NCBI RefSeq assembly: GCF_008831285.2
Contig: NC_045145.1
Span: forward strand, 5,394,802 to 5,458,801
DNA length: 64,000 nt
Reading direction: 5' to 3'
From: Nymphaea colorata
Taxonomy: Eukaryota; Streptophyta; Magnoliopsida; Nymphaeales; Nymphaeaceae
The translations under genes and the position numbers were made by a program. Below are positions 17,681 to 41,854 of this stretch, in pieces. How positions within the stretch are numbered: the first letter of the stretch is position 1; every line of letters begins with the position of its first letter. The notes below the pieces were generated by a model. That model was not told the DNA's origin. It ran no database searches and saw nothing but the letters and a program-made list of their open reading frames with translations.

Positions 17681-18321
17681 TTCTCTAATAAGTTAGTCGA
17701 TTTTGAATAGTTGGTTGATCAGCCGTAATCTATAAGTTGATTGCACATCTTTCTCTCTGCCCTAAATGGTTTTTTTTGCTAATTATAACAATTTAACATT
17801 GTACATATCTCTCTCTCTATAATAAGTTAATCCATGTGAATTTGATTGTACCTCCATTTCTCCCTTGAACAATTTTCTTTATTAATTATAATAAACAAAG
17901 TTTTACATCATAGTTTAATGTTCTTTAAGTGTCACGCTGTAAAAATCTAATTTTGCATTTTTCATATAACATTATATGTATGATAAAAAACAAGAAAAAA
18001 TATAATTTCATTTATCTAAAAAAGTGAAGTTATGCACTATTAGATAAATGTCAATATAAACAAAACAAAAGGTCTAAAGAAGGTCTAAATATGACAGACT
18101 TACATAAAGAAATAGTAAATGACATTGTAAACTCGTGTGCAGTGGTGGAGCCAGAAATTTTTGGTTGTGGGGCACTAGTACATAGTATGCGAAAATTTTT
18201 TCAAATTAAAATATATGTTATTTTAAAAATAAAGCAAACTTACAATTGGTCCCGACAAACAAATCATATCATAGTTATGAACAAACTTACAATTGGTCCC
18301 GACAAACAAATCATATTATTA

Positions 18322-21239
18322 TTCCAGTTTCCCTCTACCGCGGTGGTGACTGGTGAGAGGTCATACTTGTTCTTTTTCTTTTTCCTTCTGTTCCCGTTGG
18401 ATTCTGTGGAGTTCCGTAGGAGGATGTAGGAATTGTTTTTGTTGTTTGTTTCAGGCTTGTTTCATTAGGTTCTATCTTTTGTTTGGTCGCTAGATTTTTT
18501 TTTTTTGGATGGTGATATATATGGAGGGAATGGTGTGTTGACGACTCGACGGCACAAGGAGATTTGGGGACGACGTCGACGGATTGGAGGTTGGAGCTCT
18601 CTGCAGTTTCGTGGCAGATAATCGTCGATCGAACATACAGAAAAATCAAATAATTTTCTATCGAGCGTATAGATTATTATCGTATCAGTTCTTGTTTTGC
18701 TCCTTTCGAAAATAATGAGTTCTTCTTTTCTAAAAAAATTATAATAGATTTAGCACAATTGTGGCTGTTAGAATTCTTTATTTGCTTTTTGATTGATAAA
18801 TAGCTTTCTTTGAAGTAGGTTCTATCAATTTCTGACTATGCAATTCTCTTGTCTTTAGAATTTTGTTTGAGGTTTTTTTATTGTGTGATTGAGAAGAGTT
18901 GTAAGTCAAGATGCTTGCATTATTATAGTTTTATTTTTCATGAAATTGGGATTGTCTATATATTTTTTTTTCTTTATGATTGGCAATTTGCTCTCTCCAG
19001 TGGCGGAGCTAGAAATTTTTGGCTGTGGGGACTAGTACATAGTATGTAAAAACATTTTCAAATTAAAATATATGTTATTCTAAAAATAAAGCAAATAATC
19101 ATAGTTATGAACAAACTTACAATTGGTCCCAACAAGCAAATCATATCATTATAGTTATGGACAAAATTACAATTGACCAATGGCACCAAAAAAGTCAATT
19201 GAATGATTATAGTTGTGAACAAATTTACAATTAGCATCAAAAAGTAAATCAAATGATTACAGTTATAAACAAATTTATAATTGACCTCAAAAAGCAAGCC
19301 AAAAAACTATGGTCATGAAGAAAATTACATGTGGCCTCGTCTGTTTTTATATTCTGAAAACGATGCATGATTGCTTCATCACTGATACTGTCAAATGTGT
19401 TCCTCTCAATGTAAGTGACTAAAGCATCATTAACTCATTCATCTCCCATCTTGTTACGAAGCCTAGTTTTGATAATGTTCATAGCTGAAAAGGCTCTCTC
19501 AACACTTGCAGTTGCAACTGGTAAAGTTGGTGCCAATTTAATCAACAAATACACTAGAGAAAATATTATGTGTTTCCAAGTTGTTACCATCATTTCAGAT
19601 AGTTCAGTCAAAGATTTCAAATTTGAAAACTCTTCAGTGGTTTTTATGTCTTCAATGTACACATCTAATTGACTTTCAAGTCTATAGAAGTCTGCTCTAT
19701 TGAAGTCTTTAAGATAGAACTCGACAAGACAAATCAACTTATGTTCGTCAACAAAAGCTATTCTTTGGACTTAAACGTGCCATTGAAAGAAGAAGCTCTG
19801 TATTTGCCTCAGTGAAACGACTGTTCAACTCTTGAAGTTGCATATCAATAACAACATAAAATACTTCAACACGATAATGATGCAAAAATATAATCCTTTC
19901 ATGTACAAGTCTGGGTCATCCTTGAGGTGTATAGATCTTCTCTAAATCAGACACGAATATATCAAATTTATTGCAAAATATATAAATTTTACTCATAAAA
20001 GAGTCCCAACCATTATCTCTCAAATCTTGAAGGCATGTTTTTTATACAATAACTAAATTTATAGCAGTTATGATATCTTGATATTTTCGTTGGAGTGCTT
20101 GTGAAAGTGTGTCAGTTATCCCCAAAACTTTATACATCAAATGCAAACCAAATATAAATTCAAAATTTTGCAATGTATGTATCAATTCAAGTGCCTCTCA
20201 TTTTCCTTTACTTATATTTTCTGCAATAAAATCTAATGCCTTAATCACAGAGGGATACATGTTGACTAAATTGACTGAAGCATCATAATGAGAACCCCAA
20301 CGAGTGTCACGAGGTCGTTTGAGACTCATCTGTTGATTTAATCCTTGTCCTGTTTGAAGTTCACTTAACTCAAGTGCTTCAGCAATTCTCATGCATTCTG
20401 CTTCCCGAATAAGCTCAGACATTTTTCAAGAAGTAGAGAAAAAATTTGACAATCTGGATAATATTCCAAAAAAGAACCCAATTACTGGATGATGTTCAGC
20501 AACAACAACTAGTGTCAATTGAAGTTGATGTGCAAAACAATGAGTATAATATGCAGACTCATTCTCATTTAATATAAGACTCTTTAGTTCATTAAATGCT
20601 CTTTTCATATTGATTGCTCCATCATAACTTTGTCCATGCAATCTTGTTGTGCTCAATCTATGCTTGCAAAATGTTTCTTCTATCGCGGCTTTTAATGATA
20701 TGGCACTTGTCTTAAAAACATGTACAAGGGCAATAAATTGCTCAACTACTTGACCTTTTTCATTAACAAATCATAATACAATAGTCATTTGTTTTTTAGT
20801 CGATATATTTCAAGAATCATAAAGCAATAAAGAAAAAAAAGTGCCTCCAAGCTCCTTCATAATAGTATTTGTAGTTTCTATTGCACATGCTCTTGCAATA
20901 TCTTTTTGTATATCGGGAGATGTCAGCTTGTTATTCTCTGGATCATTCTTCAATACAACTTTATCAATTTGACTACTAATCTTTGCAAACGATTTCAATA
21001 TCTCCATAAAATTTTCTCTATTGAAAGAGAGTTCACTTTCATCATGCCCTCGAAATGGTAATCCTTGCCTTAGCAGTATTCTTATTACATTGATAGATGC
21101 CCAAAGACGAGTTTGATATTCATTCTTTTGTTGGTCACTTTGCTTCTGAAGCATTGTATTGATATGCTTTCTTTGCTGCATTAGGATTGTAAACTTCATT
21201 CGTGCTATATTATAAGACTGTTAGGGCCCTCCATATGTA
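18322..21239 (-). repeat. left arm of 2.9-kb hAT inverted repeat
   Basis: This 2,918-bp segment is the reverse complement of 23479-26397 (2,919 bp), and the arms are separated by 2,239 bp. In one 143-bp stretch compared by eye (around 20270-20420 against 24290-24430) I counted five differences, all transitions. The arm holds a 0.66-kb hAT 5' segment followed by a hAT 3' terminus and most of a transposase pseudogene. Confidence 0.85.
19094..19330. repeat. five degenerate subterminal repeats of the hAT element
   Basis: A 50-58-bp motif built around ATAGTTATGAACAAA followed by TTACAATTG recurs about five times (starts near 19099, 19157, 19208, 19257, 19307) between the transposase stop and the inner terminus. 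The mirrored set is at about 25390-25640. Arrays of this kind near hAT ends are often transposase-binding sites; that role is inferred here. Confidence 0.65.
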
Positions 21240-21681
21240 AATCAAATCTCTTCTTCTCTTTCCAATTGTTAAACCCATCAGATACCAATGCCTCTATAAC
21301 GAATCTGTCAGTGTGTTATGGCCTGAAAAGGTAGCAATATTGACAATATGCTCTATGTTTGCTTGGAGTGTACTCCAACCAATTTTTATACTCATCAAAC
21401 CATTTTGGATTAAACTTTCGCTTTTGATGGTTGGGCTGAAAATCACAATTACGAGGCCGACATGGGCCTCGCAGAAGATAAGCTCTGTGAATACTTTTTC
21501 GAACATTTGGATGATAAGTTGACATAGGAGGACAAAGCGCAGGATCTGGAGGCAACTCTGCTTCATCAAATTCTATATCATTTTGCTTGTCACTTGATTC
21601 TCCTTCTTTTCTTGATTTGATTTCTTCTCGTTTTGAAGAATGTTTATCAGATGTAGGCATTTTCACCACAAACTTATCCAT
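19325..21681 (-). pseudogene. hAT-like transposase pseudogene (TTF zinc finger, DUF4371, hAT dimerisation), left copy
   Basis: Reading from 21681: an N-terminal region with a TTF/ZMYM-type finger (YCQYCYLF near the end of the first open segment), then the DUF4371 region (from about 21199, QKQSDQQKNEYQTRLWAS), a central catalytic-like part (HCFAHQLQLTLVVVAEHH), and the hAT C-terminal dimerisation motif (VATASVERAFSAMNIIKT, about 19490). The last stop is at 19325-19327. The frame is broken by frameshifts after the zinc finger and by several in-frame stops. Some stops are shared with the right copy (for example after the TIVL motif), so they predate the duplication. An intact protein would resemble the domesticated zinc-finger MYM-type 1-like proteins of plants. 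It is a dead transposase. Confidence 0.85.
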
Positions 21682-23420
21682 GCCTATTCATTAAAAGTAA
21701 AATAAAAAAATAATTAGTATATAAAGAAATTAATACTTCACAGTTTTATTTCTTTAATTTTCTTATGGCTGTATTATCAAGAACAAACGTCTTTTAACAA
21801 TTGCATCATTGGTTAAAATATCACTGTAAGTGCGGGTATTTGGCTTTTCTCAGTTATCTCATGTCCTAAACAAATATCTTCTACTAAAGCATGTAAAAAG
21901 TAAAAACATATACACCATAATTGCATGTTTTTGGCCTGTCTCAGTTATCTCATGTCCTAAACAAATATCTTCTACTAAAGCATCTTAAAAACATACATAA
22001 TATTTGCAGGGTTTTGGCCTGTCTCAGTTATCTCATGTTCTAAACAAATATTTTCTACTAAATCATTTAAAAAGTAAAAACACATACACCATAATTGCAG
22101 GCTTTTGAGTTATCTCTTGTCCTAACCAATATATTCTATAGTCTACTAAAGCATGTAAAAAACATACATCATCTTCACAACATCAATATACCTCAATATG
22201 CTTAATATCTTGGGAACTTCTCATGAAAATCTTTGACTTTGCTCTCTTTTGTTAATCAATTGTCATGTTCATTACAAAAACAAAACACATAAAAGTTGAT
22301 AAGTATTTTCTAAGTACACCAGTAAAGGCCAACAAAGAAAGTATCAAATAACAAAACAAGTGCCTCAATATGCTTAATATATTGGGGAATTTGTCATGAA
22401 AGTCTTCAACTTTGCTAAAAGAAAACTACCTTCATCAGAAGGGGCCCATTTTCTTCTGCAATAACAAGTATCGTCTTTCTCAATCACCAAATCATTTGAC
22501 GAGTCACACCTAATGACTCAGCAAGGTAATGAATGCAAACTTATGCCGTAACAGATGACAAGTTTCACGAAATGTACAAATATGAAATTTGGTAGATACA
22601 GCGTTGCTTCCATCATTTGAAAGAAAACTCAGTATTTCCTCTATCAGGTGGTCCAAGATACATATTTATCCAAAAAAACAATAGAAATAGAAACACCAGA
22701 TAATTCGTAACTATGAAGAACTTTAATATTTTAAGATTAAAAAAAGGAGCAATTTTCATTGCAAGAAGAGCTAGTTTCATTCTAGTACATGAATCAGAGA
22801 GTGGATAAAATTTGAAGCAGATAAAAAGGAAACATATTGAATAGAAAATGCATGTCGTTAGCAGAAGAAAAAGAAAATCAATCATGAACCTGACTCGTTG
22901 AAGTAGCATGCATTCTTTCTTCAAATCTTTCGGCAATTTTCTTAAGCGCTAACACTCCAAAAGGACCAAAGATTGGTAAGTGTTTTATCAGTGTCTCAAT
23001 TCATCAATTCTGCATAGAAAAACACAACCATGTTATCTATTGTCATACAACAACAGAAGTTAACACCATGAACTAAACCAAAATGCCGCATCATTTCATT
23101 GCAATTTTGCAAAATTCCAGACAACCAACAACTTTAAAAGAGTAATCCAACTATCTGCGGTTCATTAAATGAAAGAGAGACAGACTAAACCTAAAAGATT
23201 ATCAACAATACATTTCTTATATCCATCTCCCAGATCTAGTATCAGCCAACATTTTTTTGAAGTTTCAAGCGAATTGAAAATACGGTTTCCTCGGGCGAAT
23301 GTCGGAGAACCAATTCTACTAGGCTATTCAAAAATCCAACTTTTGATAGTTAGGATGCTAGTATAGGGAGAGCAAATTGCTAATTAGAAAGAAAAAAAAA
23401 AAAAATAAAAAAATAAATAA

Positions 23421-23455
<35 letters not shown>

Positions 23456-23478
23456 TCCAATTTCACGAAAAATATTGG
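21240..23478. other. spacer between the hAT inverted arms
   Basis: The left part (21240-21681) carries the transposase zinc-finger exon that the right copy lacks. The rest is AT-rich, intron-like sequence. It includes four tandem copies of an 82-91-bp unit (CAGTTATCTCATGTCC at 21851, 21942 and 22025, and a shortened one near 22107) and an (AT)n run at about 23426-23451. A segment at about 23366-23470 repeats, in direct orientation, the roughly 100 bases just right of the inner terminus at 25715. Confidence 0.65.
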
Positions 23479-26397
23479 GGGCCCTAACAGTCATCATAAT
23501 ATAGCACGAATGAAGTGTACAAGTTTAATGCAACAAAGAAAGCATATCAATACAATGCTTCAAAAGCAAAGTGACCAACAAAAGAATGAATATCAAACTC
23601 GTCTTTGGGCATCTATCAATGTAATAAGAATACTATTAAGGCAAGGATTACCATTTCAAGGGCATGATGAAAGTGAACCCTCTTTCTGTAGAGGAAATTT
23701 TATGGAGATATTGAAATCGTTTGCAAAGATTAGTAGCCAAATTGATAAAGTTGTATTGAAGAATGATCCAGAGAATAACAAGCTGACATCTCCCGATATA
23801 CAAAAAGATATTGCAAGAGCATGTGCAATAGAAACTACAAATACTATTATGAAGGAGCTTGGAGGTACTTTTTTTTCTTTATTGCTTGATGGTTCTCGAG
23901 ATATATCAACTAAAAAACAAATGACTATTGTATTATGATTTGTTAATGAAAAAGGTCAAGTAGTTGAGCAATTTCTTGCCCTTGTATATGTTTTTATGAC
24001 AAGTGCCATATCATTAAAAGTCGCGGTAGAAGAAACATTTTGCAAGCATGGAGTGAGCACAACAAGTTTGCGTGGACAAAGTTTTGATGGAGCAATCAAT
24101 ATGAAAGGATCATTTAATGGACTAAAGACTCTTATATTAAATGAGAATGAGTCTGCATATTATACTCATTGTTTTGCACATCAACTTCAATTGGCACTAG
24201 TTGTTGTTGCTGAACATCATTCAGTAATTGAGTTCTTTTTTGGAACATTATCCAGATTGTCAAATTTTTTCTCTACTTCTTGGAAAATGTCTGAGCTTAT
24301 TCGGGAAGCAGAATGCATGAGAATTGCTGAAGCACTTGAGTTAAGTGAACTTCAAACAGGACGAAGATTAAATCAACAAATGAGTCTCAAACGACCTCGT
24401 GACACTCGCTGGAGTTCTCATTATGATGCTTCAGTCAATTTAATCAACATTATCCTTCTGTGATTAAGGCATTAGATTTTATTGCAGAAAATATAAGTAA
24501 AGAAAAATAGAAGACACTTGAATTGATACATACATTGCAAAATTTTGAATTTATATTTGGCTTGCATTTGATGCATAAAGTTTTGGGGATAACTGACACA
24601 CTTTCACAAGCACTCCAACGAAAATATCAAGATATCATGACTGTTATGAATTTAGTTATTGTATAAAAAACATGCCTTCAAGATTTGAGAGATAATGGTT
24701 GGGACTCTTTTATGAGTAAAATTTCTATATTTTGCAATAAATTTGATATATTTGTGCCTGATTTAGAGGAGATCTATACACCTCAAGGACGACCCAGACG
24801 TGTACATGAAAGGATTATATTTTTGCATCATTATCTTGTTGAAGTATTTTATGTTGTTATTGATATGCAACTTCAAGAGTTGAACAGTCGTTTCACTGAG
24901 GCAAATACAAAGCTTCTTCTTTCAATGGCACGTTTAAGTCCAAAGAATAGCTTTTGTGCTTTTGACGAACATAAGTTGATTTGTCTTGTCGAGTTCTATC
25001 CTAAAGACTTCAATGGAGCAGACTTCTATAGACTTGAAAGTCAGTTAGATGTATACATTGAAGACATAAAAACCACTGAAGAGTTTTCAAATTTGAAATC
25101 TTTGACTGAACTATCTGAAATGATGGTAACAACTTGGAAACACATAATATTTCCTCTAGTGTATTTGTTGATTAAATTGGCACCAACTTTACCAGTTGCA
25201 ACTGCAAGTGTTGAGAGAGCATTTTCAGCTATGAACATTATCAAAACTAGGCTTCGTAACAAGATGGGAGATGAATGAGTTAATGATGCTTTAGTCACTT
25301 ACATTGAGAAGAACACATTTGATAGTATCAGTGATGAAGCAATCATGCATCGTTTTCAGAATATGAAAAATAGACGAGGCCACATGTAATTTTGTTCATG
25401 ACCATAGTTTTTTGGCTTGCTTTTTGAGGTCAATTATAAATTTGTTTATAACTGTAGTCATTTGATTTACTTTTTGATGCTAATTGTAAATTTGTTCATA
25501 ACTATAGTCATTCAATTGACTTTTTTGGTGTCATTGGCCAATTGTAATTTTGTCCATAACTATAATGATATGATTTGCTTGTTGGGACCAATTGTAAGTT
25601 TGTTCATAACTATGATTATTTGCTTTATTTTTAGAATAACATATATTTTAATTTGAAAATGTTTTTACATATTATGTACTAGTTCCCCACAGCTAAAAAT
25701 TTCTAGCTCCGCCACTGGAGAGAGCAAATTGCTAATCATAAAGAAAAAAAAATATATAGACAATCCCAATTTCATGAAAAATAAAACTATAATAATGGAA
25801 GCATCTTGACTTATAACTCTTCTCAATCACACAATAAAAAAACCTCAAACAAAATTCTAAAGACAAGAGAATTGCATAGTCAGAAATTGATAGAACCTAC
25901 TTCAAAGAAAGCTATTTATCAATCAAAAAACAAATAAAGAATTCTAACAGCCACAATTGTGCTAAATCCATTATAATTTTTTTAGAAAAGAAGAACTCAT
26001 TATTTTCGAAAGGAGCAAAACAAGAACTGATACGATAATAATCTATACGCTCGATAGAAAATTATTTGATTTTTCTGTACGTTCGATCGACGATTATCTG
26101 CCACGAAACTGCAGAGAGCTCCAACCTCCAATCCGTCGACGTCATCCCCAAATCTCCTTGTGCCGTCGAGTCGTCGACACACCATTTCCCTCCATATATA
26201 TCACCATCCAAAAAAAAAAAAAATTCTAGCGACCAAATAAAAGACAGAACCTAATGAAACAAGCCTGAAACAAACAACAAAAACAATTCCTACATCCTCC
26301 TACGGAACTCCACAGAATCCAATGGGAACAGAAGGAAAAAGAAAAAGAACAAGTATGACCTCTCACCAGTCACCACCGCAGTAGAGGGAAACTGGAA
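23479..26397 (+). repeat. right arm of 2.9-kb hAT inverted repeat
   Basis: Reverse complement of 18322-21239. It runs from GGGCCCTAACAGTC (23479) to the ACTGGAA at 26391-26397. Beyond 26397 the right arm continues into the hAT 5' end (promoter-like, GC-richer, 26398-26706), while the left arm instead abuts a second copy of the hAT 3' terminus (18140-18321). Confidence 0.85.
23488..25389 (+). pseudogene. hAT-like transposase pseudogene, right copy, lacking zinc finger
   Basis: This copy starts in the DUF4371 region (about 23510) and lacks the TTF zinc finger seen at 21294-21681. The DUF4371 block, the central block (HCFAHQLQLALVVVAEHH at about 24170) and the hAT dimerisation region (VATASVERAFSAMNIIKT, about 25195-25250) are in order, with the final TAA at 25387-25389. 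A shared TGA follows TIVL at about 23936. There is a private 1-bp deletion near 24455, a TAG near 24508, a shared TAA near 24664 and a TGA near 25276. It is non-functional as protein coding. Confidence 0.85.
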
Positions 26398-26714
26398 AGG
26401 ATGCCATTTTCGTAGCTGCCGCTGGCCCGTTGCTGCCGTAATGGCCCTGGCCCTTCCCCTTTCTGATTTGGTGAATGGTTGGGAACTTGGGCGGGGAAAC
26501 AAAATGTTTCCGACTTTGAGTTTGAGAGATTTAGATGTTTAAGCTTTCGGTTTCGGACTTGAACCGCTGTTCACTGTGGGGCCCGACCCAAGTCTGGCAT
26601 GGGCAACACATGCCATTCGACTTGGGTGGAGCTCCTATCTAATGGGAGCTTTAATGGGCTGGCGTGGGCAGTGGCTCACGCCAGCCCACACGTAGCTCCG
26701 CTACTGCTTGTGTG

Positions 26715-27086
26715 CCTCTAGTGTCATTCAATGTCCCAAGTAAGATCTCTTTATGCATATAAGAGAAACAACCAAAGAATGTGTCGATCCTTTATCTATA
26801 TTTAGTAATAAAAGTATATGCTTTCATCTGCAACTTTTTTTTGAAAATAAGTCATTCATAGAGTACGTTGACAAATGACTCCTCTCAATTATCGCAGTGG
26901 TACTTTCTCTGGCTGGAGACTGGAGTACTACTTTCTCTAATCACTCTGTCAATTGATTTAGTTGCATCTTCAATTATCTTGATAACTATAAAGTTTAAAG
27001 TCATCTTCATTTCTATTTCTCTTCTTCATGTATTTTGATGACGAATTTGGACTGTAATCAATTTCATGCACTTCACAATCATCTTT
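26715..27086 (-). pseudogene. PIF/Harbinger ORF1 (Myb/SANT-like) remnant, exon 2 distal part
   Basis: On the minus strand this continues the reading from 32501, across Copia 1, into sequence encoding a basic tract (MKKRNRNEDDFKL) and, after a frameshift, IEDATKSIDRVIRESS. This is the layout of the C-terminal half of plant Myb/SANT-like (L10-interacting MYB type) proteins carried by PIF/Harbinger elements. The hAT composite is inserted at its far end (26706/26707). The same sequence recurs, inverted, in the 497-bp tandem array. Confidence 0.6.
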
Positions 27087-27091
27087 AAGAT

Positions 27092-27311
27092 TGTTGAACA
27101 AGAAAAGTTTTATGTTTTAGGAGGTTCCTTGTAATATTAAAGAGTTATAAGATCTCTTTAATATTTTCCTTATTTCCCATTGAGTTATTTTGTAAATCCC
27201 TTTTCTACCCTAATCTCTTTTATAAGAGAGATAAGGGTTATCGTAATAAGTTCTTTTGGTTCAATCTCACGGCAGCTTCTCTCTCTCACTCTCTTCTTCT
27301 CCGCTGCAACA
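27092..27311 (+). repeat. Copia 1 5' LTR
   Basis: Begins TGTTGAACAAG and ends CTGCAACA, immediately before the tRNA primer-binding site. A TC-rich stretch near its end resembles an R/U5 region. Confidence 0.95.
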
Positions 27312-27546
27312 TGGTATCAGAGCTACGGACGTGACTGGAGACGTGGATCAAACAGCCGGCGCGCGGACATCGGACGTCCATACATCTGGCGACGTGAAGC
27401 ACACAGCCGGCACGCGGACGTGTGATGCACACCGTCGGTGATCCTCCGTCTCCTTTCAGGCTTGATCTCTTCCACTTCCTCCGTTTCTTTCTCCTTCACC
27501 TCTCGCCTATTCTAGTTGCTGTTTTCCAGCAACGGAACAGTGTGGA

Positions 27547-27586
27547 GGAGTCTATTCACGCTAGGAGAGATGCGTGAATAGACTCC
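27547..27586 (+). promoter_or_regulatory. perfect 15-bp stem-loop in Copia 1 leader
   Basis: GGAGTCTATTCACGC (27547-27561) is perfectly complementary to GCGTGAATAGACTCC (27572-27586), with a 10-base loop. It lies about 235 nt after the primer-binding site and 485 nt before the first gag ATG, where retroelement RNAs carry packaging, dimerisation or translation signals. Function is inferred from position only. Confidence 0.6.
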
Positions 27587-28071
27587 AGCCGTGGATTTTC
27601 AGAAGTGTATATAGTATCGCAGCTGTGTGGGAGTCTGCGCTGATTAATCGCCTATGATTTGATATGTTATATTATCAACGCAGCCAAGTGGAGGACTGCT
27701 ATCTATGACGTCTATGGCAAGTTTATGTTGATGGTTTTATTTGCTGTCGTTATTCATGATCTGTGAAGGATAAACTGTGGTACAACAGTGTTAGATGCAT
27801 AAATAGATAAGTCGTTGGTCAGTGCAAACAATACAAACAGTGGGGATTCGTTTTCAGTTGTGGGCTTGCTGATAGCAGCGTTTTTCTGTCTTCAGATTGC
27901 AGTCTTCTTTGTTGTGGTATTGCTGTCAACAGTTGGACAACAGGTTGATTGTTTCTGCACATCTAACGTTGCCGTGTGGGACGTCTGTTCTTGTTGATTA
28001 ATTTCTTTTTCAATAGAAATATATATATATATTCTCTTGCTATTGGTGGTTGATCTCTTGTGGACAGATTT

Positions 28072-31000
28072 ATGATGGCTGAAAGTAATAAATATGATTT
28101 TTCTCATGAAGTTAAAAGTGGAAGAAATCCATTTTCGTATGGTTCTACTATAAAGTTAGATGGATCTAACTATGAGATTTGGTCTCGTGTGTTTATGATG
28201 TCTGTGATTGGACATCAAAAGGAACATGTTATAGAAGAAAACGAACCTGTTGAAAAGAGTGGAAAATATAGTTCATGGAAGGGAGATAATAATATTGTCA
28301 TGTCATGGATCATGAATAGTGTGCAACCCCAAATTGCATCAACTATTGCATACTACACCTCGGCTAAGCAAATGTGGGATTTCTTGAAACAAACTTACTC
28401 GAATGACAGGAATATTAGCAAAATATTGCAGGTAGAGGAGGAACTACTTAATCTGCAACAGGGTGACCAAAGTCTTGCTCAGTACTTCGCTTCCCTTAAG
28501 TCCATCTCTGAGCGACTTAAAGCATTACGTCCTCCATGTCCAACATGTTATAAGACCCATGGTGAACAGTCTATGGTTGCGAAATTCCTACAGGGTCTCT
28601 CCTCTGAATATGCAGTAGCAAAGGTTCAGATGCTGACTGGAGCAGAAATCCTTGATCTAGCTGAAGCCTACAACAGGCTTAGTCGTCTTGCTGTGACCCT
28701 TTCTTCACCTGCCAGTGATATCCATGCCTCTGCCTTAGCAGCTTCAGGAGGACGTGGACGCGGTTTATTCAGGGGAAGAGGCATGGGCCGTGGGTCAGGA
28801 GGAGGTCGGGGGAGATTTCAGTGCACTTATTGTGGGAAAATAGGTCATTTGGAAGACAAATGTTGGGATAAACATGATCGTCCTACTGCAACGCCATCCT
28901 TAGGCAGAAATGTTACATCAAAGCTGGGGAAGAACTCTTTACAGTCTTCTATTGGAACGACCCAAGCAGCGTCATCAGTAGTAGATGGGTCTTTATCTTC
29001 TTCTCAGCCTGAGACAATGACTGTGAGTATCAATAAGTCAGAGTATGAGGACTTTCTAGCACACAGATCTACTCAGCCATCGGCCTCCACAGTTATGACT
29101 GACAGCGCTATGTCTGTTGACACTATCTCACATGATACAGGTACTACTTGGATTATTGATTCAGGGGCATCGAGGCACTTTTGTAGTAAGCCTTTTATGT
29201 TTACTGTGCTACACTCACTACCTCAGATACGTCATGTGAGACTTGCAGATGGTAGATTGTCGCCCATTATGGGATATGGAGATATCAAGATCTCTCAATC
29301 TACGACTATTCCCAATGTGTTATATGCTCCTAAGTTTCCCACAAATTTGTTATCTGTCGGACAATTGGTTAATGATTTACATTGTCGTGGTTTATGTTCA
29401 TTTCGGGACTTGCCAACTGGGAAGACGATTGGTGGAGGCTATGAGAAAGGGGGCATCTACTTCCTGTCGGATCCCGTGGGTATTGCAGCATCATCGATCA
29501 CATCGTTGTCCTCCTCGTTCCAGTGGCATCTCAGACTTGGTCATCCATCTGTCTTCAAGCTCCGTCATCTCCTTCCACATCTCTCCTTACCAGAGTTGTT
29601 CCAGTGTGAAGCTTGTCAACTTGGCAAACACACTCGTAGTAGTTATTCATCGAGTCTTAGTACGTCCAGTTGTGGACTATTTGATCTTCTTCATGTTGAT
29701 GTGTGGGGTCCTAGCAGAGTTGCTAGTAGGTCAAGATTTCATTATTTTCTTGTCACCGTAGATGATTATTCTCGAGTCACCTGGGTTTTCCTTTTGAAGG
29801 AAAGGTCTGAAGTCGTATGTACTCTCAAAAACCTTATTATTGAAATAAAGACCCAGTTTGGTATTCTTGTTAAAAACATTCGCACTGATAATGCTCTTGA
29901 GTTTAAGGCATCTACCTTAATGAAGTTTTACTCAGATAATGGCATTTCTCCTCAGTTTACATGTCCCCATACTTCCCAGCAAAATGGAATAGTTGAGCGA
30001 AAACATCGTCAACTTTTAAATGTGGCTCGTTCCCTTATGCTTCATACTAATCTCCCTGCATATTTTTGGGGAGATGCTATTCTTACTGCTTGCTAGTTAA
30101 CCAATCGTTTACCCTCATCCTCCATTGATAACCAGATCCCCACTAAACTTGTGCACCCACAAAGATCCTTGTTTCCAGTGGCTCCCAAAGTATTTGGTTG
30201 CACATGCTTTGTTCACATCCTTGGACCCACACGTGACAAATTGGGAGCCCAAGCCATTAAATGCATTTTCATTGGCTACTCCAGAAACCATAAAGGCTAC
30301 AAATGCTTTGATCCCTTGACTCAAAAAGAGTATATCAGTGCGGATGTTACATTCTTTGAGTCTCAACCTTATTATAGCCTCACTCCTATATCTACTGAGA
30401 TGCCACGGTCTCCAGACCCACTACCTATTCCTCCTATTCCTTTGGAGTCGTTCCCTGTTGAATCTCCTTCGTCTGTTGTGTCCAAGTTTCGTGATCCACC
30501 GCTGGTCTACACACATCGACAGGACCCTTCTCATAATCCTTTGCCAACCGTTTCTCAGGAGGTAAGTACATCTGAAGTGCATAGCCCTACTCATTCTGAT
30601 CCTTGTCAAGACTTACCTATTGCTCTTCGCAAAGGCAGACGACAATGTACTTTACATCCTATATCTCATTTTGTGTATACTGATGGGGTTGGTAAAAATA
30701 TGCAACAATTCATTCATGCTTTGGCTGCTCATATAGTTCCTACGTGTCACCAGCAGGCCTTATTAGTCACCCAATGGAGACGGGCTATGCAAGATGAGAT
30801 GGATGCCTTAGTGCAGAGGGGCACTTGGGAACTTGTTGATCCTCCTCCTCGATGTGATATTGTTGGCTCAAAGTGGGTATTCATAGTTAAGTATAATTCT
30901 GATGGTTCTTTGGAACGATACAAAGCTCGATTGGTTGCTAAGGGCTACACGCAGACCTACGGTGTGAATTTCTTTGAGACCTTCTCTCCAGTTCCTCGGT

Positions 31001-32265
31001 TGGGAACCATTCGTCTTATTATTTCTGTGGCTGTCCACCATGACTGGCACATGTATCAACTGGATGTCAAAAACGCCTTTTTGTATGGTGATCTTGATGA
31101 GACTGTCTATATGCAACAACCACCGGGATTTGAACGACAGGGGGAGTGTGGAAAAGTGTGCAAGCTGAAGAAAGCTATTTATGGACTCAAACAGAGTCCT
31201 CGTGCGTGGTTTCACAAGTTTTCCGAGGTAGTCTCACAGTGTGGCTTTGTGAGATCTCCTCTTGATCATTCCTTGTTATCATGAAGGCTTCCAGAGGTAT
31301 AACTGTTTTCGTGGTTTATGTTGATGATATTATCCTGACGGGTGATTCTGATCAAGAAATTTCTGATGCAAAGCTGTTTCTTCAAAAACACTTTGTGACG
31401 AAAGATCTGGGTCCTCTACGATACTTCTTGGGAATAAAAGTTGCTCGCAATAGGGAGGGTGTTGTTCTCTCTCAACGGAAGTATGTTCTTGATTTATTGC
31501 AGGACACAGGGATGCTAGGAGCTAAACCGGCAAATTTACCTATGAATCCACGTATACATCTTCATGATGACCAAACAGAATTAGTGGATTCTAGATCTTA
31601 CAGATCCCTTATTGGAAAACTTCTCTATGTTACCGTGACAAGACTAGACATTAGTTTTGCAGTGGGAAAACTAAGTCAATTTATGGAAAAACCAAGGAAA
31701 GTTCATTGGGATGCTGCTTTGATGGTGGTTAAATATCTGAAATCTTCTCCTGGCAAAGGCCTTTTGTTCACAAAAGGCAAGACTCTGGAAGTGGAAGCCT
31801 ATAGTGATGCTGATTATGCTGGCTCAGTAGAGGACAAAACATCTACCACAGGATTTTGTGTATTTGTGGGAGGCAATCTCATATCGTGGAGAAGCAAAAA
31901 ACAAGGTGTGGTGACATCTAGTGCAGAATCCGAATACAGAGCTATGGCTCAAACAGCAGCAGAAATGACGTGGGCTAGATCCATGCTATCCAGCCTAAGT
32001 GTCAATCACACTTCCCATGAAGATGTATTGTGACAATCAAGCAGCAACACACATTGCAAACAATCCAGTTTTCCATGAAAGAACTAAACATATTGAAGTG
32101 GATTGCCATTAAATTCGGGATCTCGTTCAAGCAGGAACCATTGCCACTGTTCATGTTCCTTCAGAAGATCAAGCTGCAGATATCTTCACCAAAGCTCTTC
32201 CTATTGGTGATTTCTCTAGATGTTGTGACAAGCTAAGCATGTTTAATATGTATGCTTCAGCTTGA
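28072..32265 (+). pseudogene. Copia 1 gag-pol polyprotein, disrupted
   Basis: Domains in order: gag (from ATG 28072), a CCHC zinc knuckle (CTYCGKIGHLEDKC, about 28822-28863), aspartic protease (WIIDSGASRHF, about 29150), GAG-pre-integrase (WHLRLGH), integrase core (HVDVWGP, then DDYSR, then ending QQNGIVERKHR), reverse transcriptase ([15 protein letters not shown], then YVDDIILTG at about 31317) and RNase H (YSDADYAG; TTGFCVFVGG). Copia order (integrase before RT) is clear. Lesions: an in-frame TAG at 30094-30096 after the integrase, a frameshift near 31277 just before the YVDD block, another near 32010, and a TAA near 32110. The frame would end at TGA 32263-32265. It cannot encode an intact polyprotein. 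Confidence 0.9.
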
Positions 32266-32272
32266 GGGGGAG

Positions 32273-32495
32273 TGTTAAACAAGAAAAGTTTTATGTTGTA
32301 GGAGGTTCCTTGTAATATTAAAGAGTTATAAGATCTCTTTAATATTTTCCTTATTTCCCATTGAGTTATTTTGTAAATCCCCTTTCTACCCTAATCTCTT
32401 TTATAAGAGAGATAAGGGTTATCGTAATAAGAAGTTCTTTTGGTTCAATCTCACGGCAGCTTCTCTCTCTCACTCTCTTCTTCTCCGCTGCAACA
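32273..32495 (+). repeat. Copia 1 3' LTR
   Basis: Begins TGTTAAACAAG directly after the polypurine tract and ends CAACA before the target duplication AAGAT. It is nearly identical to the 5' LTR, with a 3-nt insertion (GAA) near its end. Confidence 0.95.
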
Positions 32496-32500
32496 AAGAT

Positions 32501-32725
32501 TAACAAAAGGTTCTAATGTTGCTTGATTCTGATAAATTATATTATCAATAAGTTCGATAGTATCTCCACACATCTCATTCATTAAATTCGTTGAAGACAT
32601 TCAATGAAGTCTTTCTTTTGCTGTTATTGATGCTTTTCCTATGGCTCTGTCTTGACAAAATAAAGTCACTAAGTTCTCATTTCTTGGACAGGTGTAGTCA
32701 TCTTTTTTTCTACATGTGGATGTCT
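32501..32725 (-). pseudogene. PIF/Harbinger ORF1 (Myb/SANT-like) remnant, exon 2 proximal part
   Basis: On the minus strand, an acceptor (TTCTTTTAG, exon from 32725) opens a frame containing NENLVTLFCQDRAIGKASIT, followed after a stop by MCGDTIELIDNIIYQNQ. The F-C-Q-D-R-A-x-G-K block is typical of the segment after the Myb/SANT domain in Harbinger ORF1 proteins. The exon continues beyond Copia 1 at 27086. Confidence 0.6.
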
Positions 32726-32976
32726 CTAAAAGAATAGAAAACACAAAATATAAATAAATTCATATGTAATGTCAAGAATCTTTTTCATAATAAAGATATA
32801 GTTAAATAGTTAAAATGAAATTAATACTGCTGTTAATGACATCCAAACTTTAGGTTGAACTGTCTACGTATTTGTTGTTAGATTAAACTCATTCAAATCA
32901 TTTTTGGAAATATCATAACAGTTATTGAAACTGAAATTTTGTTGTTTTTACGCAATTCTTGATATGAACTCTTGAT

Positions 32977-34560
32977 ACGTGTGGGCTGGCGTGAGCCACT
33001 GCCCACGCCAGCCCATTAAAGCTCCCATTAGATAGGAGCTCCACCCAAGTCGAATGGCATGTGTTGCCCATGCCAGACTTGGGTCGGGCCCCACAGTGCA
33101 TGAAATTGATTACAGTCCAAATTCGTCATCAAAATACATGAAGAAGAGAAATAGAAATGAAGATGACTTTAAACTTTATAGTTATCAAGATAATCGAAGA
33201 TGCAACTAAATCAATTGACAGAGTGATTAGAGAAAGTAGTACTTCAGTCTCCAGCCAGAGAAGTACCACTGCGATAATTGAGAGGAGTCATTTGTCAACA
33301 TACTCTATGAATGACTTATTTTCAAAAAAAAGTTGCAGATGAAAGCATATACTTTTATTACTAAATATAGATAAAGGATCGACACATTCTTTGGTTGTTT
33401 CTCTTATATGCATAAAGAGATCTTACTTGGGACATTGAATGACACTAGAGGCACACAAGCAGTAGCGGAGCTACGTGTGGGCTGGCGTGAGCCACTGCCC
33501 ACGCCAGCCCATTAAAGCTCCCATTAGATAGAAGCTCCACCCAAGTCGAATGGCATGTGTTGCCCATGCCAGACTTGGGTCGGGCCCCACAGTGCATGAA
33601 ATTGATTACAGTCCAAATTCGTCATCAAAATACATGAAGAAGAGAAATAGAAATGAAGATGACTTTAAACTTTATAGTTATCAAGATAATCGAAGATGCA
33701 ACTAAATCAATTGACAGAGTGATTAGAGAAAGTAGTACTCCAGTCTCCAGCCAGAGAAAGTACCACTGCGATAATTGAGAGGAGTCATTTGTCAACATAC
33801 TCTATGAATGACTTATTTTCAAAAAAAAGTTGCAGATGAAAGCATATACTTTTATTACTAAATATAGATAAAGGATCGACACATTCTTTGGTTGTTTCTC
33901 TTATATGCATAAAGAGATCTTACTTGGGACATTGAATGACACTAGAGGCACACAAGCAGTAGCGGAGCTACGTGTGGGCTGGCGTGAGCCACTGCCCACG
34001 CCAGCCCATTAAAGCTCCCATTAGATAGAAGCTCCACCCAAGTCGAATGGCATGTGTTGCCCATGCCAGACTTGGGTCGGGCCCCACAGTGCATGAAATT
34101 GATTACAGTCCAAATTCGTCATCAAAATACATGAAGAAGAGAAATAGAAATGAAGATGACTTTAAACTTTATAGTTATCAAGATAATCGAAGATGCAACT
34201 AAATCAATTGACAGAGTGATTAGAGAAAGTAGTACTCCAGTCTCCAGCCAGAGAAAGTACCACTGCGATAATTGAGAGGAGTCATTTGTCAACATACTCT
34301 ATGAATGACTTATTTTCAAAAAAAAGTTGCAGATGAAAGCATATACTTTTATTACTAAATATAGATAAAGGATCAACACATTCTTTGGTTGTTTCTCTTA
34401 TATGCATAAAGAGATCTTACTTGGGACATTGAATGACACTAGAGGCACACAAGCAGTAGCGGAGCTACGTGTGGGCTGGCGTGAGCCACTGCCCACGCCA
34501 GCCCATTAAAGCTCCCATTAGATAGGAGCTCCACCCAAGTCGAATGGCATGTGTTGCCCA
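32977..34560. repeat. 497-bp tandem array (about 3.2 copies) made of a hAT/host junction
   Basis: Units start at 32981, 33477, 33974 and 34471 (GTGGGCTGGCGTGAGCC), giving periods of 496, 497 and 497 bp; the fourth is cut at 34560. Each full unit is the reverse complement of roughly 26577-27070: about 129 bp of the hAT right end, the hAT terminus CAGTAGCGGAGC, the target-duplication octamer CACACAAG, and about 360 bp of Harbinger ORF1. The first unit lacks the outermost 13 bases of the hAT terminus. The units are almost identical to each other, with only a few differences seen. The array sits between exons 1 and 2 of the ORF1 remnant, inverted relative to it. Confidence 0.9.
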
Positions 34561-34714
34561 TCTCATTCATCTTTGTTACAAAATCATATGCTGTAGTAGT
34601 ACTAAAAATACCATTTACCTTATTACCTATCATTTGTTGGAGTAATATAACATCAATAAGTACATTATCCATAAATGTACTTCATTGTTTATTAGTGGTC
34701 TTTCCACTCTCCAT
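34561..34714 (-). pseudogene. PIF/Harbinger ORF1 (Myb/SANT-like) remnant, exon 1
   Basis: From ATG 34714-34712 on the minus strand, MESGKTTNKQ is followed by one in-frame TGA and then STFMDNVLIDVILLQQMIGN and NGIFSTTTAYDFV. The stop falls where Myb/SANT-like domains carry their first tryptophan. The pattern (D-x-x-L-x-D, G-N-x-V-N-G-I-F, T-A-Y-D) is characteristic of Myb/SANT-like proteins from PIF/Harbinger elements. The frame is cut at 34561 by the 497-bp array. Confidence 0.65.
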
Positions 34715-36297: not shown

Positions 36298-36584
36298 TGT
36301 TAGAATACCGTGTAATAGGGAACCGGGTCCGGATATGGACCCGGTACCCATAGGTGCGAGAACCGAGGACGGGCTCGGTTCACTGGGCGGGTCTCACTTC
36401 CTCCCTCTTTTATTCTAATCACTTATTGTAATTGTTGATTAAGTGAATTAAGATTTCTCTGTCCTAGGGTTGCGGTTTTGCCCCTAGGTTAGAGCTTTCC
36501 CGTGGTTTTTCACCTCGTTCCGAGGTTTTCCACGTAAATCCTGTGTTTGTTTTACTTTCTCTTCTTTCGCTGCATGTTTCTACA
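36298..36584 (+). repeat. Copia 2 5' LTR
   Basis: TGTTAGAATAC to TTTCTACA. The U3 half has a GGACCCGG/CCGGGTCC palindromic cluster. The primer-binding site follows directly. Confidence 0.95.
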
Positions 36585-36907
36585 TGGTATCAGAGCCAGG
36601 TTCCGAGTCCCACCGCCGACGCAGCCCGCAATCCCACCGCCGCCCGCCGTTGCTTGGCGTGCGCCGCCGCCGTCCGCCGGTCTGACACCGCCCGACGTCG
36701 CCTGGGTGCGCCGCCGCCGCCGCTCGCTGTTCGACGCCGCCCGCCGTCGCCTGGCCTGTTCCCCGCCTTGTGCCTGCTTGCCGGAGATCCCGCTGCTCTG
36801 CCGCTGCCCGTCCTCCATTGTAGGCAAAGTGCCACTGTCCTCCTCCTGCGTTTTTCTGGTATTCTCTGACTGTTGGATTTTTTTTTGTGGTCGTTATGGC
36901 TTAAGAG
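36585..36907 (+). other. Copia 2 leader, GC-rich
   Basis: Between the primer-binding site and the gag start, about 36600-36800 is dominated by CCGCCG/CCGTCG repeats, far GC-richer than the rest of the element or its flanks. It is open in more than one frame, but this reflects composition rather than a gene. Confidence 0.6.
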
Positions 36908-39900
36908 ATGACCTCCAAGACCGATGTTACCTTTGACACGGGCAGCAATACCAAGAGTGAAAATTTGCCTGTTCAAGTCACCCCAAGTCACCTCTATTCG
37001 GCTGAACAAAGACAATTATCTCTCTTGGTCTGCTGCGCTTGAAATTGGGATCACTAGTCGCGGTCGTCTGCCCTATATCACTGGAGAGAAACCTGCACCT
37101 AGTAAAACTGATACTAGATGGGCGACTTGGGCGTTGGAAGATAGTCAAGTTAAGGTTTGGATTATTAGTTCTGTTTCTGCTGATATTCAACCCCTTATTT
37201 TGCGAAAGTTGACCTCATATGACATGTGGACTGTGCTTGCGAGGATGTATGGCCGTAAAAAGAGAGTCCTGCGTACATACCAGATTAAACGCAGCATCTA
37301 TTCTCTTAAACATGGTGACTTGTCTGTGGCATCTTTCTATGCAGCCCTGAAGACTAAATGGGAGGAACTGGATTATCATGTGAATGATGACTGGAATTGT
37401 GGTTCTGATCATGAACTGTACTGGCAGAAAGAATGGATGGACCGCACTTTTATTTTTCTGGGAGGTCTGCGTGATGAGTTTGAATCCATTAGGAGTCAAA
37501 TTCTCAACTGTGGCGAGACCCCTGGAATTGAGGAGGTGTATGCCCGGGTGGAATCTGAGGAACAACGCCGTCAAGTGATGCATATTGACTCTAGTCATGG
37601 TAGTTCTCCCTCTGCTTTTGTTAGTCGTGCTCCAGGGACTGGGCAGCGTCCTATTCGGCGTTGCAGTCACTGTAACAAGTTGGGACACTCAGTTGATTTT
37701 TGTTGGGATCTTCATCCTGAGAAGAGGCTCACCTGTGGTTGTCCTCCCTCTGGTAGGTGGGGTCCTCCTGTGCCTGATACTAGCTCTCCCAATGTTGAAA
37801 AACCGAAGCTTTCCTCTGACCAAATCAAGAAATTACAAGCTTACATCAGCCGGTTATCTACTACTAAGGAGGAAGCCTCCACGTCTGAGGGAGCTCAGTT
37901 AGCCCAAGCTCTTGTTGCCACAAGTGATCAAGGTAATCCCTTACTTGGTGATTGGGTAGTTGACAGTGGAGCTACTCATCATATGACAGAGAACCCTAAG
38001 ATGTTTCAAGAGTACAAATTGTCTTCAGGGCAGCAGCCCGTATTTATGGCTGATGGGTCCTCGATCTCTGTGGCTGGAAAAGGGAGTTTGTCCTTATTAA
38101 ATAAATATCTTCATAATGCTCTTCATGTTCCTAATATTCCTGTGAATTTGTTATCTGTCAGTAGTATCACCAAAGAACTCAATTGTAATTTAATTTTCTC
38201 TGCTGATCATTGTACCCTGCAGGACTTGGTGACGGGGAAGAAGATTGAGATTGGTTCGGTTATTGATGGCCTCTACAGAGTGCCCGTACAGGTTGCCTCT
38301 GCTCTCATCTCAGCTACTAGCAGACAGTTGACGGGCGTGGAGGACAGGTCTAGCATTATGAGATGGCACGAGCGCCTTGGACATCTCCCATTCCAGTTGA
38401 TTAAGAAGTTGTTTCCTAGGTTGTTTACTTCTTTTCCATGGACTCCTTCACATGTGAAGTGTGTCAGTTTGCTAAGCATGTTAGGGCTTCGTACCCTATT
38501 TCTATCAATAAAACCACTCGTCCTTTTGCTTTGGTTCACTCTGATGTTTGGGGTCCTTCGGGAGTACCCACTTGTCGTGGTTTCCATTACTTTATGACTC
38601 TGATTGATGACTACTCCCGTTGTACGTTCGTGTACTTGTTGAAAGAACGCAGTGAGGTTCCTGTCATTGTCAAAAATTTTGTTGTCTTTGTCGAAAATCA
38701 ATTTCAAACCTCTGTTCAGATTTTCCATACTGATAATGCCAGGGAGTATGTCTCCCAATCCCTGGATGACTTTCTACGGGACAAGGGTATTGTTCATGAG
38801 ACGTCATGTAGTTATACTCTTCCTCAAAATGGCGTGGCCGAACGTAAAAATCGCCATTTATTAGATGTCACCCGAGCTATTATGTTCCACAGGCACGTTC
38901 CTAAGCGCTACTGGGGCGATGCTCTCCTCACTAGTGCCCACCTCATCAACCGTATGCCCACTCGTGTGTTGAATGGCCATACTCCTTACTCTGTGCTCAG
39001 TCCCACTCATAACCCCTGGCCTCTTACTCCTCGGGTGTTCGGGTGTGTTTGCTTTGTTCATAACCATAGTCCCACCAACAAGAAACTTGACCCTCAGTCT
39101 GTCAAAGCTGTCTTCTTGGGGTATTCCTCCACTCAGAAGGGATATAAATGTATTGATCCTACTACCTCCAAAATCTATGTCTCCCGGGATGTTACCTTTC
39201 ATGAACATGAGGCGTATTTTCCTGTGAATCCTCTTCAGGGGGAGTGTATAGGGGACAGTGTGGAAGAGTATTCTCCAAATCAGCTTATTCAGTTTACTGA
39301 CTTCTTGGACTACAAACTTAGTCACCGTGTGGAAGATACAGTCAGAGATGATAAAGACAGTCATGTGGAAGGGGGCCCTGTGGATGATCAGCCCACATCT
39401 CGGAATCATTTGTTTGGGTAGGTTTACACTAGAAAGGAGAAAGATGTGGTTGACACTGTTGATATAACCAATCCCAATCCTGTGAGTTCCCCGAATGAAC
39501 CAAGTCCAATGAATGAAGAGCTTCCCATAGCCCTGCGCGCAAGGGGACCAGGTCATGTACTTCTCACCCTATTCAGAGATTTGTCTCATATTCAAAACTC
39601 AGTAAAGAATACAAATGCTTTATTACCACTCTGTCTATGTCTGTGATTCCCAGGTGTGTGGAAGATGCTAGAGAGGATCCTAAATGGCTACAGGCTATGA
39701 CAGAGGAGATGGATGCCTTGGCAAAGAACAACACTTGGGAAGTGGTCGATATTCCCAAGGAGACTCACTTAGTTGGTTCCAAGTGGGTGTTTAGTGTGAA
39801 GTATAAACCTGATGGCACTGTGGAACGGTATAAAACTCATCTGGTTGCAAAGGGGTTCAGCCAAAAATACAGAATTGACTATCTTGAAACCTTTGCTCCT

Positions 39901-41197
39901 GTTGCAAAACTGAAGACTATGAGGGTCATTTTGGCACTTGCAGTGCAAAAGAAGTGGGGCATGGACCAGCTTGATGTCAAGAACGCCTTCTTGAACGGCC
40001 ATCTAGAGGAGGAGGTCTATATGAGCATGCCTCCTGGATATGCTCAAAGTGGAAAATGCTGTCATCTCAAGAAGGCCCTGTACGGCCTGAAGCAGTCCCC
40101 TAGAGCATGGTTTGAAAGACTGAGGGTGGTAATGAAGACAAATGGGTACAAGGAAATAGTGATCATACCCTGTTCATTAAGCAGAGAAGTGGCCTGGTGA
40201 GCATTCTTCTTGTGTATGTTGGTGATATGATTGTCACAGGTGATGATGAAGAAGAGAAAAGGAAGATGAAGGAGAGGTTAGCTGCTGAATTTGACCTTAA
40301 AGATCTGGGAAAATTAAGGTACTTTCTGGGAATAGAGATTGCGAGATTGCACGATGAGAGACAGGGCTTGTTATGAGCCAAAGGAAGTACACTCTGGACC
40401 TCTTGAAAGAGACAAGTAAACTGGGATGCAGGCCCTTTCTAACTCCAATGGAGTCAAGTACGAAGATAAGTATCAAAACTGGTAACATCCTGGATGAGGA
40501 AGGAAAATGACGGTATCAAAGGCTGGTTGGTAGGCTTATTTATCTTACTCTTACTCGCCCTGATATTACTTATGCAGTAAATGTGTTGAGTCAGTTTATG
40601 CATGTTCCTACTGATTGTCACTGGAAGAGTGCAGAAAGAGTGTTGGGGTACCTGAAAAATAACCCAGGTAAAGCGTTACTGTATACACGGTATGACAAAC
40701 TTAATATTGAAGGATACTCTGACGCCGATTGGGCTGGTTGCTCGGATACCAGAAGGTCTACCACAGGGTACTGTATCTTTTTAGGGGGAAACCTGGTGAT
40801 ATGGAGGAGTAAAAGGCAGGAGGTCTGTTCTAGATCCAGTGCTGAGGCTGAATACAGGGCTGTTGCTATGGGGGTTACAGAGATGTTATGGCTAAAGATT
40901 CTTCTAGCAGATATTGGAATTGAAATTGAAGAGAAGATGAAAATGTATTGTGACAATAAGTCTGCGATTAACCTGGCAAATAATCCCATCCTGCATGACA
41001 GAACCAAACATGTGGAGATAGATCGCCACTTCATACGGGAGCGCATAGATTCAAAGGAGTTGATCCTTCCTTATATGAAGTCTCAAGATCAAATTGCAGA
41101 TGTTCTAATTAAAGTCTTATGTACATCTCAATTTGAAAAGAATGTTAGCAAGCTTGGCATGTTTGACATGTATGCCAAGCTTGAGGGGAAGTGTTAG
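36908..41197 (+). pseudogene. Copia 2 gag-pol polyprotein, disrupted
   Basis: The likely original start is ATG 36908; a frameshift near 36990 moves the reading into the long frame that is open to 38597. Domains: gag (SIRLNKDNYLSW), CCHC knuckle (CSHCNKLGHSVDFC), protease (WVVDSGATHHM), GAG-pre-integrase (WHERLGH), then a frameshift near 38430, integrase (CEVCQFAKH; HSDVWGP; DDYSR; QNGVAERKNRH), a TAG at 39419-39421, RT ([19 protein letters not shown]), a stop at 40198-40200, and RNase H (YSDADWAG; DNKSAINLANNP). At the RT active site the sequence reads YVGD (about 40214-40225) where copia elements have YVDD, so a catalytic aspartate is lost. The last stop is at 41195-41197. Confidence 0.9.
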
Positions 41198-41477
41198 AAT
41201 ACCGTGTAATAGGGAACCGGGTCCGGATATGGACCCGGTACCCATGGGCACGGGAACCGAGGATGGGCTCGGTTCCCTAGGCAGTCTCTCTTCCTCCCTC
41301 TTTTATTCTAATCACTTATTGTAATTGTTGATTAAATGAATTAAGATTTCTCTCTCCTAGGGTTGCGGTTTTGCCCCTAGGTTAGAGCTTCCCCGTGGTT
41401 TTTCACCTCGTTTCGAGGTTTTCCACATAAATCCTGTGTTTGTTTTCCTTTCTCTTCTTCCGCTGCGTGTTTCTACA
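41192..41477 (+). repeat. Copia 2 3' LTR
   Basis: TGTTAGAATAC to TTTCTACA after the polypurine tract, followed by target duplication GCATA. It is diverged from the 5' LTR mostly by transitions. Confidence 0.95.
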
Positions 41478-41482
41478 GCATA

Positions 41483-41854
41483 AAGAAGCATATACATTTG
41501 AAAGGAGTAATAAAGTCACCCTTTATTGAAAAGCTTATATCATGATAATATTTACCTAAAAATTTCAAAATGATTGGCATTGTTAAGTTCATATTAATAA
41601 AAATACTACCATATGTAACTTTTGAAATGACAATCATCTTCAGCAATTTTAAATTTATCTTCTCATAAAAAGCATTTTTATTATTCTTGAATCAAGAACA
41701 ATTCCTTCCCAACCAGCTAATATATATTTAAGTTTTGTTGTTAAAAAATATGTTGTTAACTCATTTTGAGTTGACCTTTTTTTTTCACCACAATGTTTTG
41801 GTAGATTATCTGGAGATACTTTAACACAAACATGTGTTCCATTAACTGCACTAA
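41483..41854 (-). pseudogene. PIF/Harbinger DDE transposase remnant, central part
   Basis: Minus-strand reading gives SAVNGTHVCVKVSP, STQNELTTYF and ILAGWEGIVLDSRII. It then passes through a short gap into a degraded GKYY motif toward the Copia 2 junction. This is the DDE_Tnp_4 core of PIF/Harbinger (usual I-D-G-T-H-I and L-x-G-W-E-G-S-x-x-D-S-R). The first catalytic Asp is replaced by Asn; the second Asp (D-S-R) is present. The N-terminal part is missing: homology stops at 41854, where the 222-bp tandem duplication begins. Confidence 0.75.

Follow-up and report, generated by a model that had tools for sequence, protein, structure and literature searches.

The MMBIR model, in the part of its description drawn on here, covers inverted pieces, deletions and microhomologies of 2-5 bp, and also rolling copying, which follows if the molecule itself is used as the new template from a point behind the break (PMC2621351). 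In maize, re-replication of Ac gives rise to composite insertions at transposition junctions (PMC4270019, in the sections cited). Single-copy Pack-TIR duplications in animals have been ascribed mostly to transposition-independent gap filling, with microhomology at at least one breakpoint in 67.6% of Pack-TIRs (PMC8277862, as far as the cited sections go). In the case of the maize Mu killer locus, part of the hairpin model is disputed by the Mu killer paper itself (PMC3440606, in the portion cited). An inverted array of TIR plus flank was not described in the titles and opening abstracts of the open-licence literature that was found. In this study, we describe a young and little-mutated case of such an array. 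Its source, copy and closure are legible along with the two array ends and the empty site, which makes it possible to see, at a single locus, how a transposon edge begins to turn into a tandem array.

The locus lies in Nymphaea colorata (GCF_008831285.2, NC_045145.1:5,394,802-5,458,801, forward strand; this whole stretch of 64,000 nt is referred to as the window), and the assembly that was searched comprises 407.8 Mb in 783 contigs. An outer hAT element has inserted into a host gene, and the junction between its right end and the host is the source of the array unit:

18132..18139, forward strand: left copy of the target duplication, CTCGTGTG, 7/8 identical (flank comparison)
18140..26706, forward strand: outer hAT element inserted in the host gene (TIRs, hAT domains, empty site)
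26572..27072, forward strand: source of the unit, single copy, with CACT at each end, 26572-26575 and 27069-27072 (self-BLAST, alignment)
26572..26706, forward strand: hAT right-end part of the source, 135 bp (DNA fold z-score -7.63, helix map)
26707..26714, forward strand: right copy of the target duplication, 8 bp, CTTGTGTG (flank comparison, empty site)
26715..27072, reverse strand: host pseudogene part of the source, 358 bp including up to 27072 (paralogues L009, L010, L011)
27092..32495, forward strand: Copia-like element separating source and array, with target duplication AAGAT (LTR match, frames, empty site)

The source element has the features of a hAT transposon, namely TIRs (the left one, CAGTGGTGGAGCCA, starts at 18140 with CTCGTGTG directly before it), transposase domains (Pfam Dimer_Tnp_hAT, 22.3 bits, and DUF4371, 52.5 bits) and an 8-bp target duplication. 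The duplication claimed in an earlier note on this DNA is real, but it is imperfect in the window, where CTTGTGTG and CTCGTGTG agree at 7/8 bases. The empty hAT site is seen in paralogues L009 and L056, which align through it; the other eight loci align there weakly or not at all. Within the element there is also an inverted repeat of 2.9 kb (18322-21236 and 23472-26397, 96.3%), whose inner ends 18998 and 25717 adjoin the identical flank GAGAGAGC and whose second arm (23472-26397) carries the hAT domains.

TRF finds a single array with a period of 497 bp, composed of 3.2 head-to-tail copies over a total of 1586 bp:

32501..32975, reverse strand: host pseudogene, left of the array (paralogue matches)
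32976..34561, reverse strand: array of 3.2 tandem 497-bp units in inverse orientation to the source (TRF, self-BLAST, unit alignment)
32976..33097, reverse strand: U0, partial unit of 122 bp, hAT part alone (unit cut at the closure junction)
33098..33593, reverse strand: U1, full unit of 496 bp with one 1-bp deletion (unit alignment)
33594..34090, reverse strand: U2, full unit of 497 bp (unit alignment)
34091..34561, reverse strand: U3, partial unit of 471 bp, terminating within the hAT hairpin with host adjoining (unit alignment, helix map)
34562..34708, reverse strand: host pseudogene, right of the array, Myb/SANT-like start with a weak Pfam match (Pfam, paralogues)

The units are 99.2-99.5% alike, and in self-BLAST U1, U2 and U3 match 26572-27072 in inverted orientation at 99.0-99.4%. 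The length and identity of the array rule out a chance match. The 497-bp tandem array that the earlier note had placed at 32977-34560, as the inverse of 26577-27070, is thus borne out, with its limits refined to 32976-34561 and those of its source to 26572-27072, a span of 501 bp that counts CACT twice. The claimed content of the unit stands as well, with 135 bp of the hAT right end, the 8-bp duplication and 358 bp of host. Complete TIR sites are found three times in the array (33460, 33957 and 34454), each preceded by CACACAAG. The target duplication, the absence of which had been named as evidence against this reading, is present in the complete units. The view that the array is younger than the hAT insertion, and that it stems from a junction fragment copied and inverted within the same host gene, is supported. 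U0 lacks the final 12 bp of the TIR, the target duplication and the host part, and the first 96 bases of the array are identical to its last 96 bases, which is the overlap of U0 and U3.

Searched against the assembly, the host query matches 11 places, its own locus counted. The label of Harbinger gene for the host, also used in the earlier note, is weakly supported: Pfam Myb_DNA-bind_3 matches the host stretch at E 0.089 and E 0.1 and the joined host fragment at E 0.015 (16.7 bits vs. a cut-off of 23.6), all below the cut-off, and Pfam had no match for the joined host fragment with X filler or for two other versions of the host stretch. The two paralogues in which frames were checked, L009 and L010, showed no long open frame. 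The idea of an exon loss of about 150 bp at the array, with the flanks read as two spliced exons, started from sequences of the family and was ruled out by the paralogues, which show about 16-20 bp missing.

Source and array are about 0.5 kb apart without the element at 27092-32495, as the earlier note had it for the same host gene, and 5.9 kb apart with it. This element, which is Copia-like by its reading frames, has its empty site in L009 and L010. A second Copia-like element lies at 36298-41477 and has 287-bp terminal repeats (93.7%) with Copia-like frames between them. Elsewhere in the window there are tandem repeats of 257 bp (3.0 copies, 45894-46674, partly inverse to 44750-45129) and of 223 bp (1.9 copies, 41854-42267).

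It could be thought that the unit belongs to a satellite that was already dispersed in the genome and has no connection with this hAT insertion, which the earlier note had named as a finding against its reading. The hAT end alone is indeed dispersed, as the TIR pattern, when at most 3 mismatches are allowed, fits 253 sites, including four at this locus, vs. 1 site for the reversed pattern. However, the closure junction occurs 3 times in the 408-Mb assembly, each time within this array. Moreover, a search of the assembly with a 501-base array piece, which passes over very common words, gave 61 matches from 53 candidates, and among the 40 of 53 candidates that were scored, hAT end and host are joined at this locus only, the rest being hAT ends alone or weak host paralogues. 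The dispersed component is the hAT end and not the joined unit. A satellite origin, to which we give next to no probability, is refuted in this assembly within the reach of these searches.

The array units differ among themselves by 3 substitutions and 1 indel, and have two further differences from the source in common, fixed at columns 98 and 204 of the unit alignment; at these two positions 8/10 paralogous loci aligned, with bases mixed or gapped. Two changes are private to U1 (one of them its deletion) and one to U3, and all five substitutions are transitions. An A at column 436 is common to U1 and U2 and absent from U0, U3 and the source; this one base suggests that one unit may have been duplicated after the array already existed. 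The source differs from U2 at 3 of 497 positions and the LTRs of the Copia-like element at 27092-32495 differ by 3 substitutions in about 222 bp plus a 3-bp gap (Fisher P 0.38 for the two divergences). Tandem arrays are prone to assembly error, and the assembly sequence alone was used here; however, the differences between units, the two common differences from the source and host flanks that are otherwise collinear with the paralogues make an assembly artefact very unlikely.

The array site was compared in ten paralogous loci, all of which except L058 could be aligned. When these nine were aligned together, 18 bases that are absent from the window between 34562 and 32975 were present in 8/9 paralogues, and 16 in L061. 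Pairwise, the missing bases at the junction number 18 in five paralogues, 19 in L057 and 16 in L061; in L056 and L060, 7 bases fall within 12 of the junction with the gap placed otherwise. The array has replaced about 16-20 bp of host, differing edge bases counted, and the comparison with the empty site in the paralogues reveals no target duplication around it. The array ends, TACG..CCAT or in reverse ATGG..CGTA, are not those of Helitrons, which have TC at the 5' end and CTRR at the 3' end.

The unit closes on a 4-bp microhomology, CACT, found in the source at 26572 and at 27069, and the three closures are identical. Microhomology of at least 4 bp arose by chance in 1.5% of 200,000 random breakpoint pairs drawn in these stretches. 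In source coordinates the breakpoints are 26572, 26599, 26694 and 27072. The left array end corresponds to 26694, 12 bp within the TIR terminus at 26706, and the right one to 26599, which falls within a predicted hairpin stem. The outer junctions have 0-2 bp of microhomology by eye and an extra base at the right one, and because of this they could be products of plain end joining. All three breakpoints on the hAT side (26572, 26599 and 26694) are in predicted hairpins, which were placed at 26583-26629, 26630-26650 and 26655-26688, with a TIR hairpin at 26689-26706; a 155-nt stretch of the hAT end folded as DNA reaches -47.9 kcal/mol vs. -25.5 for shuffles (z -7.63). This link between breakpoints and hairpins is partly built in, since any hAT breakpoint must fall within the copied 135 bp. 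The 12-mer CATCTCATTCAT at the right boundary of the array occurs twice in the window (32571 and 34559) and may represent a short additional template jump, where such a recurrence has a chance of 0.12% per position (73/62,899) and the 12-mer is mostly native host or hAT sequence.

Three routes had been proposed in the earlier note, namely aberrant transposition, rolling-circle replication and repair synthesis. Aberrant hAT transposition, of the reversed-ends type with re-replication, has a precedent in maize, where re-replication of Ac leads to composite insertions of transposon ends and flanks with 4-bp microhomology at one internal junction (PMC4270019, in the part cited). It fits poorly here: neither an array end nor a unit boundary coincides with the TIR terminus, every complete terminus retains its native flank, and the new site has lost about 16-20 bp instead of gaining an 8-bp duplication. 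We therefore regard this route as highly improbable.

The array probably originated in the repair of a break, by templated, microhomology-primed inverted copying of the hAT/host junction followed by tandem growth. The host pseudogene would have been broken with a loss of about 16-20 bp, and the gap would have been filled by inverted copying of the junction from a distance of some 0.5 kb, or of 5.9 kb in case the Copia-like element had inserted before. Synthesis would have entered the template at the hAT hairpin stem at 26599 and proceeded across the target duplication and the host to 27072, where a switch back from CACT to the CACT at 26572 would have closed the 497-bp unit. Finally, hAT position 26694 would have been the point from which the new strand was connected to the host. 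The tandem copies may have arisen by continued rolling synthesis on the template, or later by unequal exchange over the 96-bp overlap of U0 and U3. This reading needs a rolling template or such a second step, because separate switches reusing one 4-bp closure are unlikely. The shared 436A would fit later duplication of one unit. Microhomology at the template switch, a nearby template, sequence loss and the lack of a target duplication, all of which are expected of repair synthesis, are present at this locus. The 4-bp closure, the 16-20 bp deletion without target duplication, the hairpin breakpoints and the closures confined to a single locus favour repair, which fits best among the three routes.

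It is possible, though we consider it rather unlikely, that a 497-bp extrachromosomal circle formed from the junction, closed at CACT and was amplified by rolling-circle replication, its concatemer then being joined in inverted orientation into the break. This would agree with the one identical closure of the three junctions, with array ends that bear no relation to where the unit closes, with the 3.2 copies and with the 4-bp direct repeat at the source ends, and eccDNA reviews, in the passages available, mention rolling circles together with microhomology. On the other hand, a free circle would not be expected to integrate at a distance of 0.5-5.9 kb within the gene it came from, the 436A in U1 and U2 suggests stepwise growth, and the circle itself is hypothetical. 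Moreover, a rolled circle is not required, as one back-switch followed by unequal exchange yields an equal array. We retain repair of a break by inverted copying as the preferred reading.

The genome search for other arrays of TIR plus flank found a second one, at L022 on C10 (C10:3384440-3384936, L022:449-945), with a period of 191, 2.6 copies and 91% matches in TRF. Its TIRs lie at offsets -191, 0 and +169, and its unit consists of about 40 bp of hAT terminus and about 150 bp of flank, with the closure in the first hairpin by eye. The flank is host sequence, as its similarity of 88-90% to seven other places on C10 extends to query base 204 and stops there, immediately before the hAT terminus. 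With its empty paralogous sites, L022 shows that the arraying of TIR plus flank has recurred, and with two such arrays in one assembly this recurrence becomes testable. Both arrays are tandem units of a hAT terminus and host flank, but the one at L022 is direct, adjoins its own hAT end in situ, has diverged further and is closed in another hairpin. At L012 (671-930, C13:513170-513429) there is a 131-bp tandem duplication inside a hAT end, without host flank, and one of its breakpoints is, by eye, in the same terminal hairpin as the L022 closure. L029 has a 146-bp repeat of 5.9 copies (1173-2039) that begins 199 bp inside the hAT end and may be unrelated to it.

These loci come from a sample of 55 (the 35 best query matches and 20 from the 100 listed TIR sites), 49 of which have a recognisable TIR. 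Tandem repeats were flagged at L022, L029 and L043 on the TIR-oriented strand and at L012 on the given strand only. The resulting 4/49 hAT ends compares with 1/20 random loci and 3.3% of sliding windows, a comparison in which counting L012 leans to enrichment, since its repeat shows only on the given strand and not on the scanned, TIR-oriented one. Tandem-repeat enrichment at hAT ends, and with it hot-spot status, is not clearly above background. More than one TIR was present at L022 only (1/49 ends), and same-strand TIR sites at most 2 kb apart were seen by eye only in this array and L022 among the 100 of 253 sites listed. In RNA-parameter folds judged by eye, many of 46 other hAT ends again have the large hairpin that comes first after the TIR, and several have lost part of it (e.g., L014, L018, L023 and L029). 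We raise as a speculation, and a doubtful one, that the hairpin-rich hAT end is a recurrent amplification seed (this locus, L022 and L012), at which forks or breaks at the terminal hairpin would copy the end and its flank into arrays, and that read-through RNA of the inverted array described here might pair with the source and, in the manner of Mu killer, serve as a trigger against the dispersed ends of the family.

The locus indicates that a transposon terminus, its target duplication and the host flank can be amplified together without transposition. As in MMBIR-FoSTeS and filler DNA, according to the portion of PMC2621351 drawn on here, there is a local template, an inverted copy, microhomology at the switch, a small deletion at the break and possibly rolling copying, and by this analogy the set of MMBIR features fits the array. 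Filler DNA also follows transposon excision in plants; the fillers reported for rice excisions average 13 bp with a range of 1-123 bp (PMC4423477, in the section cited), whereas the array here has 1586 bp and is made of repeated copies of a transposon/host junction. The gap filling described for Pack-TIRs also takes place at TIR elements and belongs to one class with the event considered here. Small inverted triplications in yeast and cancer genomes are likewise short, local, inverted copies for which replication errors are blamed, but they have a DUP/IN/DUP structure of about 148/160/148 bp (PMC13334657, as far as cited), in contrast to several direct copies here that are all inverted to one source. 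Maize composites of the Ac/fAc RET type share a hAT end duplicated with its flank and the 4-bp microhomology at one internal junction (PMC4270019, in its cited part); the array here differs from them in having no junction at the TIR terminus and a small site deletion in place of an 8-bp duplication. Satellites seeded by DNA transposons and MITEs are also tandem repeats of DNA transposon origin (review, PMC9659126, in the part cited), unlike which the present array is confined to a single locus, has 3.2 copies and consists mostly of host sequence. Finally, the array and its source present a transposon end as an inverted repeat, which is a type of structure tied to transposon-family silencing in maize, and the inverted duplication is directly seen in self-BLAST (26572-27072 vs. 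32976-34561). Mu killer, a natural inverted duplication involving a transposon end (PMC3440606, in the portion cited), may be its nearest functional analogue, the resemblance being one of outline: the element here is a hAT instead of MuDR, a Copia-like element lies between the three copies and the one source to which they are inverted, and the hAT end alone is what the unit carries of the transposon.
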